This document shows positions 1,490 to 62,995 of a stretch of DNA of 64,000 nucleotides, in pieces. Position 1 is the first letter of the stretch. Each line of letters begins with the position of its first letter. The notes under the pieces are model-generated. The model had not been told where the DNA came from. It made no database searches and worked only from the letters and a program-made list of their open reading frames with translations. This DNA is from Tridacna crocea (Eukaryota; Mollusca; Bivalvia; Cardiida; Cardiidae): positions 53,636,192 to 53,700,191 of the forward strand of contig OX031061.1 in NCBI GenBank assembly GCA_943736015.1. Direction: 5' to 3'. The translations under genes and the position numbers were made by a program.

Positions 1490-1718
1490 TTAACCCTTTA
1501 CTCCATAGATACTCATTTCTACGCATTGCTTGTAGGAGCCTTTGGAAAACATTGTGGCAAAAGGTGAAATTGCTCGTGACGAGCAATTTCACCTTTTGTC
1601 ACAATGTTTTCTATGCTATCAAAAGATGTCATATACATATAAGAAACGACTTCATCCTTGCTGTTATTCAGAGTCAATATGAGATACCATAGAAATGTCT
1701 TGTGGGGTAAAGGGTTAA
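1490..1718. mobile_element. TTAA MITE, subfamily E
   Basis: Flanked by TTAA at 1490-1493 and 1715-1718. The termini are CCCTTTACTCC and GGGGTAAAGGG. A central hairpin has arms reading ACATTGTGGCAAAAGGTGAA and its complement. Four similar copies are at 38162, 42919, 47162 and 58363. Confidence 0.85.
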
Positions 1719-2398
1719 ATAGACATTTAAAGAACTTCCGGGAGGGGGGGGGTTAAAAGTTTAAAATTATTGAATCACTAATAATTCTCAATAATCTAAC
1801 AACCCCAAAAAAAAATATGCTTGTTGACCAAAAGCTTCGGGGGGGGATCCTTATGTAGTCTTTTTGCTGACGGCGTAAATCAAGATCAGACTGCACAGAA
1901 CGGGCTGTCTTCGGAAGAAGTAAAGATCTATTTTAACAACTGGGGAAATTTCTGAAGTAGGTGGCGGAAGAGTTAACTTCAACTGCATTAGACAGAAACG
2001 GATCGATTCAGTCTGCATCACTAGTAAGATAATATAAATGGTGATAACAGACAAATACCCTGTATTATGAGATTTCTGTAAGACAAAATTGCGTGCAATT
2101 TTCGTCCTTTATGTTGCTTTGCAAATGTAGATTGGTCAAATTGATCCTATTCCCAAAGGCAAAGCCGTCGGTAAAACCTGTCAATAAAACGTAACAAAGT
2201 TATCGAGGTGAACCTCAAAAAGTATCAGGGCACAACAGAATCTATAAGTCGAAAACCAAACGGGAAATGTTTCGAATTATAAAACCAATTAGATTCTTGG
2301 AATCATCTGAAATTTCCAGTATTCCGTGTGGTGGTGGTTTGTTTAATCCTTTTTTTAACACAAATGTGACCCGTCACGAAAAAAAAGACCTTCTGGGA
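1719..2398. other. Intergenic stretch, nothing supported
   Basis: G-runs near 1742 and 1840 and a 67-codon minus frame at 1851-2054 without recognisable domain. No repeat family or exon could be assigned. Confidence 0.35.
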
Positions 2399-61000: not shown

Positions 61001-62995
61001 TCTTTGTGTAACATTTGATTTTTTATCATTTTTAACATGGCTACGACAATACCCAAATGTTTGTTTTTTTGGTTTTTTTTGAAAACGGCTGAGCTAAAAA
61101 ATATCAATGACTGTAGTAATTCATTGACAGAACTTAGTCCAAAGCTCAACATACCTCCTTGTCCATATGTCCCTTGATCCATCTCTCTTTCTAACTGCCA
61201 GCCATGCTTATAATCACTTCGGTCATGGAGAAATTTACAGCTATCTGAAAATAAAATGCAAGGTTCACTTTACTGACTTTACCTCATTCAGTCTTTTTTA
61301 TATTGTTTAGGAATACATCCCTCCAGCTATAGACAAAAAATACTGTGAAAATTAGACTGTAGACTGGATGAAAATATAGTCAGCAGTGTAAACATAGATT
61401 AATTAACAGTGTATAAAGTATAAGGGATAAAAACAGAATTATATAAGAAATCTTTTATTTAAAACCGAAACAGTAACAGCAATGATTTCTAAGATGGCCC
61501 AAAGAAAAATCAAGTTCACTTTCAATTGGCCATATTCAATGAAACCTAGTAACCGTCAGGGGCAAAATCTAGCATGAAGATACAAGAATAATAATAGTGT
61601 AGTTTGATAATCCTCTGCAAATGCTTTCTATTTCAATGAATCTGCAATTTTGTCATTTGGTAAATATTTAACGGAGAGTATATGGACTCTTTACCAAACG
61701 ACAAATTTTTGGACTGGACCAAATTAAAAGCATTTGCGGACAACAAAATATATGTGACTGAAAAATTGAAGTTTGGTTTGGGAAGGGTAGAAAACATTGC
61801 GGGAAAAGGAGAAAATGCTGGTTACCAGCATTTTCTCCTTTTCCCACGATGTTTTCAAAAGCTGTCTTTCTCAGGGTCATCAAAATTGTGTGGTACAGGG
61901 TTAAATAGTACTCTTCTTATGATCTACCTCCAAATCCACAAAATCCTGTTTCTTTATAATCTTTACAAATATCAGGCTGGTAATCCCATCGCACGGTCGC
62001 CCTTAAATGTGCTGGTGCTCTTAAGGGCCCTTTTCTGAAATGTATAAGTTAAACAATACATAAATCCTAGTTGCATTAACCCTTTACAATACCATCCCTA
62101 GTTTTAGGACACTGAAAAAGAAAGTATTTGAAAACATTGTGGAAAAAGGAGAAAATGCTGGTAACCAGCATTTTCTCCTTTTTCCACAATGCTTTCTTTC
62201 TTGTCAAAGACAAACTCCATCATTTCAATTACCTTTGACACCTCAAAATGCTTTCAAACTGGGTTATTGTAAAACTTTGCCATTTAGTTAATGCACCTTC
62301 CACAGCCCCTCTCTACAGAAAACAGTTTTAAAACCAGTGTGATGAAAAATCTCTCTCTTTGCCACAATGTTTCCACATCAATTCATGCATTATCCTTTGT
62401 CTCATATAAATCACTCAAATTTTACAGCAACGTTCTGCATCTGCTATATATTGTTTAAGCAATACATGTAGATGGTACCAAGCTTTGAATCAAGAGCAGC
62501 CTTTTAGATGCAACTTAAAATAGAAAATTAACCCTTTACCAAACAATCCCTGGTTTTTACGGCCCTGAAGTAGAAGCCTTTTGAAAACATTGTGGGAAAA
62601 GGAGAAAATGCTGGTAACCAGCATTTTCTCCTTTTCCCACAATGTTTTCAAACCTGCTAGAAACTAATTTCAATATTTGAATTCTGTTTATTTTGTCGTC
62701 TGCAAGTGCTTTCAATTCGGACCAATCTAAAATATTGTCGTTTGGTAAAGGCTTAATAGACTTTACTGAGAAACGTAGGAAAGGTAAAGGTCTCTTCAGA
62801 AAATATTTGCCTTTATCATATTTTTTTTGTAAAAATGAAAAGCACAAAAATTCCTTTTTTGAAATCAAAATAAGATTCAAATTACCTATTAGCAGCACTT
62901 GCAGCATTTCCCTGTGCTGTATCCCTCTTCTCATAGAACACCTGATAATTATTGATCCCTTTGTAGATTTTGTCATCAACTTTGCCTTTATTAGC
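58097..62995 (-). CDS. RNF113: RNF113 (CCCH + RING spliceosomal protein), last six exons
   Basis: Orthologue of RNF113A / yeast Cwc24, a nuclear spliceosome-associated protein with E3-ligase-type RING. Exons: 62995-62886, 62034-61928, 61244-61155, 60651-60558, 59597-59491, 58173-58097; all GT-AG, with phases that join to one 194-residue frame. Visible in order: [27 protein letters not shown] before the CCCH zinc finger (C in PDICKDYKE, then [13 protein letters not shown]); DYKHGWQLE; an acidic linker [12 protein letters not shown]; and the C3HC4 RING ([13 protein letters not shown], then CFVC) ending GVFNPAKEL. The tail is Lys then Glu/Asp rich ([13 protein letters not shown]) with a TGA stop at 58097-58099. 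Human RNF113A is 343 residues, so the N-terminal 40-45 percent lies right of the window. Introns are filled with MITEs and a SINE. Confidence 0.96.
58245..58330. repeat. Family C half element in RNF113 last intron
   Basis: CACCTTTTGGCTGCTAAATG and CAGTCTGATCTTGGATCTAC. Confidence 0.5.
58363..58591. mobile_element. TTAA MITE, subfamily E, in RNF113 last intron
   Basis: TTAACCCTTTACTCC to ATGGGGTAAGGGGGTTAA; arms of GGTGAAATTGCTTGTGACGA with one mismatch. Confidence 0.85.
58676..58912 (-). mobile_element. SINE3, complete copy
   Basis: Minus strand: CAGTAGCTCAGGTGGTAATG (box A) and GGGTTTGATCCCTGG (box B), body CAGGATTCATTCCTCTCCCA, conserved ACCGGCCACTGCGATATAAC and GTGTTAAACACCATAC, short tail. 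Confidence 0.75.
59040..59165. mobile_element. Right half of a D-type MITE
   Basis: AACCAGCATTTTCTCCTTTT onwards, without left arm. Confidence 0.6.
59232..59460. mobile_element. TTAA MITE, subfamily D, 30 bp from a splice donor
   Basis: TTAACTCTTTACCATATAATC to GTGGTAAAGAGTTAA. The RNF113 donor at 59490 is just outside its right end. Confidence 0.85.
59641..59940. mobile_element. Different TTAA element in an RNF113 intron
   Basis: TTAACCCATTATTGTAC to CACCCAGAAAGGGTTAA, about 300 bp. No D/E/F hairpin; includes GTGAAAATAtt-type inverted pieces and one TGACGTCA at 59816-59823. Confidence 0.6.
59961..60113. repeat. Long inverted repeat in an RNF113 intron
   Basis: CAGTGAAAGATCGAAATTTA through CACCATCAGTAATATTTTCA to the apex GTGGCTGTGCCAC and back to TTTCGATCTTTCACCG. 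Arms of about 70 bp. Confidence 0.75.
60420..60500. repeat. Family C-like hairpin
   Basis: AGACTCAAGACCAGACTACA and CAGATCATGATCTGCACTG. Confidence 0.5.
60680..60920 (+). repeat. Family A element in an RNF113 intron
   Basis: GTGAAAAGGGGGTTTAAGAT to AAACTCCCTTATGCC; core decayed (CAGGCTGCATAGTGCAAGCA). Confidence 0.6.
61610..61904. mobile_element. Subfamily D MITE next to a D right-half remnant
   Basis: Remnant 61610-61672 (TTTGTCATTTGGTAAATATT), then a full D at about 61685-61904 with CTCTTTACCAAACGACA start and GTACAGGGTTAA end; 23 bp from the donor after the CCCH exon. Confidence 0.75.
62076..62291. mobile_element. TTAA MITE, subfamily D
   Basis: TTAACCCTTTACAATACC to GCCATTTAGTTAA; perfect hairpin GTGGAAAAAGGAGAAAATGC. 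Confidence 0.85.
62528..62756. mobile_element. TTAA MITE, subfamily D
   Basis: TTAACCCTTTACCAAACAATC to GTTTGGTAAAGGCTTAA; perfect hairpin centred near 62617. Best consensus-like copy. Confidence 0.9.

Follow-up and report, generated by a model that had tools for sequence, protein, structure and literature searches.

Paired arm changes in the central palindrome of an abundant piggyBac-like miniature inverted-repeat transposable element of Tridacna crocea

The element and its copies in the window

The window analysed here, a 64-kb stretch of contig OX031061.1 of the bivalve Tridacna crocea (positions 53,636,192 to 53,700,191; assembly GCA_943736015.1), contains numerous copies of a miniature inverted-repeat transposable element (MITE) with a central palindrome, the two arms of which co-vary above chance and the folded shape of which seems to matter. 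The element is about 229 bp long and has the order TTAA, CCCTTT(A/C)CC..., palindrome, ...GG(T/G)AAAGGG, TTAA, where the palindrome spans about 67 bp and comprises 33-bp arms and a 1-nt centre. A sequence-only reading of the window had claimed more than 25 copies with a common order and common termini as well as a central hairpin, and this is borne out, with 26 and 30 element copies on the two lists of direct-repeat families, the ~67-bp palindrome present in window copies and 42 loci, fragments counted in, returned by a hairpin profile search of the window. Intact copies, such as those at 1490-1718, 33892-34120, 52642-52870 and 53076-53305, carry TTAA at both ends, which may represent the target duplication of the MITE. 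The copies are assigned to subfamilies D, E and F as follows (basis of assignment in brackets).

62528-62756, plus strand: D copy of 229 bp with a perfect hairpin at 62580-62652 (sequence, inverted repeat, fold)
62580-62652, no strand: arms of the D palindrome, 36 nt each (62580-62615 and 62617-62652), with 1 nt between them (inverted repeat I17)
52642-52870, plus strand: D copy (sequence, direct-repeat family)
37392-37620, plus strand: D copy, both sides of pair 63/115 changed to match, T to A in one arm and the complementary change in the other (alignment)
33892-34120, plus strand: D copy (sequence, direct-repeat family)
62076-62288, plus strand: D-like copy with a decayed right end, both sides of pair 69/109 changed to match (alignment)
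49068-49311, minus strand: D-like copy in which a substitution and a one-base insertion are each matched between the two arms (alignment)
5449-5677, plus strand: D copy (sequence, direct-repeat family)
7274-7502, plus strand: D copy (direct-repeat family)
59232-59460, plus strand: D copy with one-sided decay, left arm intact and right arm decayed (sequence)
54669-54897, minus strand: D copy with an identical twin at 57638-57866 in a duplicated block (direct-repeat family)
61686-61903, minus strand: D copy (alignment)
1490-1718, plus strand: E copy with four matched and one unmatched arm differences from D (alignment, fold)
38162-38396, plus strand: E copy (sequence)
47162-47390, plus strand: E copy (direct-repeat family)
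58363-58590, plus strand: E copy (direct-repeat family)
42919-43147, minus strand: E copy in opposite orientation (alignment)
13861-14091, minus strand: F copy, opposite to D, inner arms with one mismatch and outer arms decayed (sequence, fold)
8112-8311, minus strand: F-like copy with most of one arm gone, a counter-example that lacks the full hairpin (sequence)
53076-53305, minus strand: copy with F-type arms, one E-like end and an unrelated other flank (sequence, fold)

The arms of D, E and F differ and the opposite arm changes to match, with letters in the window identical to those quoted by the sequence-only reading, which had also correctly noted that the arms of the F copy at 13,861-14,091 disagree at one base. 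Matching does not, however, extend to every arm pair: E has four matched differences from D, but also one that is unmatched (D position 68). The F arms read as quoted, but the F copies are reversed relative to D, and in the F-like copy at 8,112-8,311 one arm is mostly missing. The copy at 53076-53305 looks like a mosaic. The parts of the duplicated block at 54416-54897 and 57385-57866 have a spacing of 2,969 bases, and the D copy inside is identical in both. An origin of D, E and F as independent inverted duplications is not needed, because most arm letters are common to the three and arms in intermediate states are also found.

Abundance in the genome

Outside the window, a profile search of 200 kb, sampled as 20 stretches of 10 kb that we chose at round-number positions of 14 contigs, identified 155 hairpin loci, 131 of which cover at least 55 model columns; at least one locus was found in 18 of the 20 stretches. 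Across the assembly searched (1.05 Gb, 31 contigs) this extrapolates to roughly 0.8 million hairpin loci. Genome-wide, there are 173,858 instances of one perfect core of 35 places, 34 of them fixed letters, in line with its 30 occurrences in the 200-kb sample, and the terminal pattern TTAACCCTTTNCC has 218,046 genome matches on both strands, compared with 480 for the reversed control.

Pairing and covariation of the arms

Standard pairs occupy 92.7% of the cells in an alignment of 27 window hairpins, and two-sided changes are observed at 10 of the 34 pairs, where shuffled alignments have a mean of 6.6 and reach 10 in 11 of 500 cases. The covariation score of the same hairpins is 0.172, compared with 0.094 (standard deviation 0.007) for shuffles, and is more than double that of any control in which the partner was slid (0.034-0.072). 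Four copies folded as single DNA strands gave z = -15.9, -15.4, -7.0 and -13.4, with a near-perfect stem of ~33 bp in three of the four. Such a stem would also be compatible with a function at the RNA level, whereby the stem of a transcript yields small RNAs and is kept by selection, and MITE-derived microRNA genes have been reported (PMC1784062). However, private one-sided changes, those that none of the five nearest relatives shares, are about as common in the left arm (330) as in the right (322), such that no signature of the transcript strand is seen, and we consider this explanation highly improbable.

Among 168 copies, 84 compensatory doubles are present versus 23.2 expected, and 43 non-complementary doubles versus 30.9; the identical D duplicate at 57,638-57,866 was kept in this count and dropped from later ones. 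Depending on which subfamily-diagnostic pairs are omitted, partner pairs are enriched 2.12-2.50-fold and non-partner cross-arm pairs 1.42-1.60-fold. As had been claimed from the window, the flanks diverge more than the arms (0.218 versus 0.081 and 0.082 from consensus, measured in 136 of the 168 copies, the rest having too few aligned letters). The arms are better conserved than the flanks between lineages as well, by a flank measure that excludes the terminal repeats. All doubles are raised because the copies differ in age, and exact states were therefore counted genome-wide with the other core positions perfect.

Genome-wide counts of matched changes

Matched doubles at pair 74/104 number 629 versus 104 expected (6.0-fold) and those at pair 75/103 number 2,196 versus 231 (9.5-fold). 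Pair 83/95, picked because the 168-copy sample had no matched change there, yields 122 versus 40 (3.05-fold). The non-partner cross-arm control 74+103 gives 420 versus 311 expected (1.35-fold), and the same-arm double 74+75 gives 632 versus 311 (2.0-fold). The counts cover these three partner pairs, one cross-arm control and one same-arm control only; since the core is palindromic, both one-sided states are counted by one search. Partner coupling is stronger here than in the sample, with partner pairs exceeding the cross-arm control 2.3-7 times. This excess runs counter to an explanation by inheritance with exchange, in which small subfamilies inherit their palindromes, ectopic conversion spreads whole hairpins and nothing acts on the pairing, and which predicts equal linkage for partners and non-partners at like span. 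The subfamily-wide matched states at three pairs (63, 81 and 86) are in its favour, yet on balance we regard it as improbable.

Despite the matched excess, most arm changes are one-sided. Relative to one-sided changes, matched ones amount to 1.3% at pair 83, 5.7% at pair 74 and 14.8% at pair 75. This 11-fold spread by position is unlike the uniform tract copying expected from template switching in the palindrome at replication, by which one arm would be copied onto the other and a change either matched or erased, leaving the pairing as a by-product that has no function. Homogenization of inverted-repeat arms by template switching has been described (PMC8794818; PMC8604942), but tract copying should convert adjacent changes jointly, whereas two neighbouring matched pairs coincide in 15 cases, compared with 7.9 from the product of the two pair rates, and the 632 same-arm doubles are left unconverted. 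Thus, the repeated copying of one arm onto the other that the sequence-only reading had proposed is disfavoured as the main cause, and we consider template switching an unlikely, although not negligible, explanation overall.

Flank backgrounds of the matched copies

The matched, one-sided and unmutated-core sets compared here derive from listed places on contig C1 and are non-random, with matched-75 places partly skipped, and two of the sampled regions (L062 and L065) contain about half of an element. Flank distance is 0.343 among matched-74 copies (n=20) and 0.314 from these to unmutated-core copies; the corresponding values for matched-75 copies are 0.304 (n=20) and 0.288, and unmutated-core copies differ among themselves by 0.270. 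Because the matched copies are spread over diverse flank backgrounds, a few founders do not explain them; such dispersal would also be expected from template switching. Only 3 of 18 matched-75 copies have a nearest flank relative that is also matched-75, which speaks against inheritance with exchange. The matched states may recur across many lineages and be partly inherited, or hairpins may have moved between lineages.

The left and right flanks stay together, with flank distance correlations of 0.67 and 0.63 across the hairpin compared with 0.61 within the right flank, a further point against inheritance with exchange. Crossing over at the hairpin is therefore uncommon, although conversion restricted to the hairpin may occur. 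Indeed, 133 of 229 hairpin loci have one left-type and one right-type side and 93 have at least one unassigned side, while two right-type sides are present in three (one ambiguous) and two left-type sides in none. Crossing over in the palindrome was accordingly rejected as the dominant shuffler of flanks.

The base in the loop provides a mixed hint of template switching. In D orientation, 4 of 20 matched-74 copies have a T in the loop, compared with none of 20 unmutated-core copies, but the pattern fails for matched-75 (0 of 20) and T is also present in 1 of 20 one-sided-75 copies; G is found in 1 of 20 matched-74 and 1 of 20 unmutated-core copies. The matched-74 copies with a T or G loop are L031, L038, L040, L041 and L042, among which L040, one of the four T-loop cases, forms a local duplication with L039.

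Divergence of arms and flanks over time

For the time-scale comparison, 189 + 49 copies were found and 189 used, window copies in the 57-kb block, L115 and copies with too few letters having been removed. Below a flank distance of 0.06 (7 copy pairs), 27 of 27 differing pairs are one-sided and the arm/flank ratio is 1.41; at 0.06-0.10 (119 copy pairs), 345 of 380 are one-sided and the ratio is 0.68; at 0.25-0.70 the ratio is 0.35-0.42. The compensated share of differing pairs is 0 in the closest bin, 3% at 0.06-0.10 and 37% at 0.50-0.70. The outcome named beforehand as contradicting maintenance, an arm mismatch frequency equal to that expected from the divergence of the flanks, is thus nearly true for very close copies, but false between lineages. 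This pattern fits decay after insertion combined with constraint in the source lineages.

Maintenance of the paired structure

Maintenance of the structure is supported against the founder, age and linkage controls, for the three partner pairs counted and a single control of either type. With slightly less than even confidence, we favour the view that, in this very abundant piggyBac-like MITE family, pairing within the internal palindrome is preserved in those lineages that continue to transpose. A copy would be mobilized less if its hairpin were damaged, and a second change that re-pairs the arms would restore mobility, while each copy, once inserted, would decay free of constraint. Such a hairpin would function in cis at the level of DNA, for instance as an extruded or single-strand fold or as a symmetric protein site, and may aid excision or escape from silencing. 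That the folded DNA hairpin is a selected cis-element of transposition in a family of near a million copies, betrayed by recurrent compensatory changes, is a more specific proposal that we put forward as possible but doubtful.

Several observations weigh against maintenance in transposing lineages. One split, that between D and E, is probably the main source of the signal in the deepest divergence bin. An uncorrected partner/non-partner ratio is biased by the variability that partner sites have in common; with site rates normalized, partner coupling is 2.11 (95% 1.39-3.00) below a flank distance of 0.15 and 1.44-1.49 above 0.30; when E/F-armed copies and pair 63 are left out, it is 1.87 (1.17-2.73) between close and 1.21-1.31 between distant copies. 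Coupling that is strongest between close copies is what a mutational process would give and favours template switching. In addition, private changes are matched 55 times versus 22.1 expected, where non-partner pairs reach 1.68-fold and 31 of the 55 matched changes are complementary. Since the nearest relative is itself matched-74 for 8 of 18 matched-74 copies, some inheritance is involved, as inheritance with exchange would have it. Finally, the nearest-flank-neighbour test revealed no own-arm excess (0.120 versus 0.109 and 0.118). The last result also counts against template switching, and led us to reject strong continuous homogenization of the arms.

Because a single genome holds over 170,000 identical palindromes, covariation can be counted with internal controls. 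Two questions become testable, namely the mobility of re-paired versus broken hairpins and the rate at which one arm is copied onto the other at replication in a eukaryote. If true, selection of the folded hairpin as a cis-element of transposition would carry covariation evidence of the kind used for RNA over to transposon DNA.

Other features of the window

A second palindromic repeat family, D12, has 13 listed copies (6979-7239, 44777-45043, 444-515 and others) with the core ...GTGTCGTCTCGGATCAGCCTGCGCAGTCCGCGCAGGCTAATCCGAGACGACAC... and arms that are also largely complementary. A third family, D20, has seven listed copies (30241-30338, 33219-33316, 49375-49472 and others) with the inverted-repeat core AGATCAGACTGCACGTTCTGTGCAGTCTGATCT. 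Repeats with terminal inverted repeats of 37-44 nt (GAAATAATCTTCTTTCTATCGTGGTTTATCGTTCAATAAA) at 43621-43791, 45576-45746, 45960-46130 and 17706-17849 apparently constitute another MITE-like family. An open frame of 898 amino acids at 34071-36767 contains a reverse transcriptase domain (PF00078) and starts within the right terminal part of the D copy at 33892-34120, and one of 453 amino acids on the minus strand at 3014-4375 matches MFS_1_like (PF12832).

Comparison with known systems

The TTAA ends, the CCC(T/A)TT motif and two autonomous loci with this motif at both ends support classification of the element as a piggyBac-like MITE. Among six transposase loci of the same genome (L109-L114), TTAACCC(T/A)TT is present at both ends of L111 (TTAACCCATTTATGCC) and L114 (TTAACCCTTTATATAC) and at one end of L113. 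The autonomous piggyBac elements (PF13843) thus resemble the MITE at their extreme ends, but differ inward of the first ~10 bases, and none of the six loci, read over the domain and 1.5 kb beyond, shares the subterminal sequence of the MITE. PF13843 has 118 genome matches, and the best 22 of the 118 are free of internal stops, several being equal in score, which hints that piggyBac may have been recently active in this genome.

The T2-MITE/Kolobok elements of Xenopus likewise use a TTAA target and form an abundant, long-lived MITE family (PMC6004289), but their termini read AGGRR rather than CCCTTT after the TTAA, which rules out a Kolobok affiliation; the main text of that report mentions neither hairpin nor palindrome. 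In RNA stems maintained by template switching (PMC8794818), both sides of the stem change together, as observed here. Those stems, however, belong to selected RNA genes and are mostly short and perfect, whereas the present case is a non-coding DNA repeat, dispersed in the genome and with arms of 33 bp, in which joint tract changes show no clear excess. Among the literature matches listed, no title or abstract opening describes covarying hairpin arms in a MITE.

The nearest published parallel is provided by the CMITEs of the coral Acropora, small piggyBac-related elements with TTAA target duplications and mostly CCCTTT-type ends, the internal region of which is better conserved across families than the ends (PMC2872659). 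TTAA and CCCTTT ends are common to both systems and a conserved core may be, the cores being compared by description only. CMITEs differ in length (~100 bp) and in copy number (~1,600 in A. millepora), and the available text of PMC2872659 mentions neither a palindromic nor a covarying core. Why some MITEs possess a conserved internal core is a question already raised for the coral elements, and one on which the paired arms of the T. crocea family bear.

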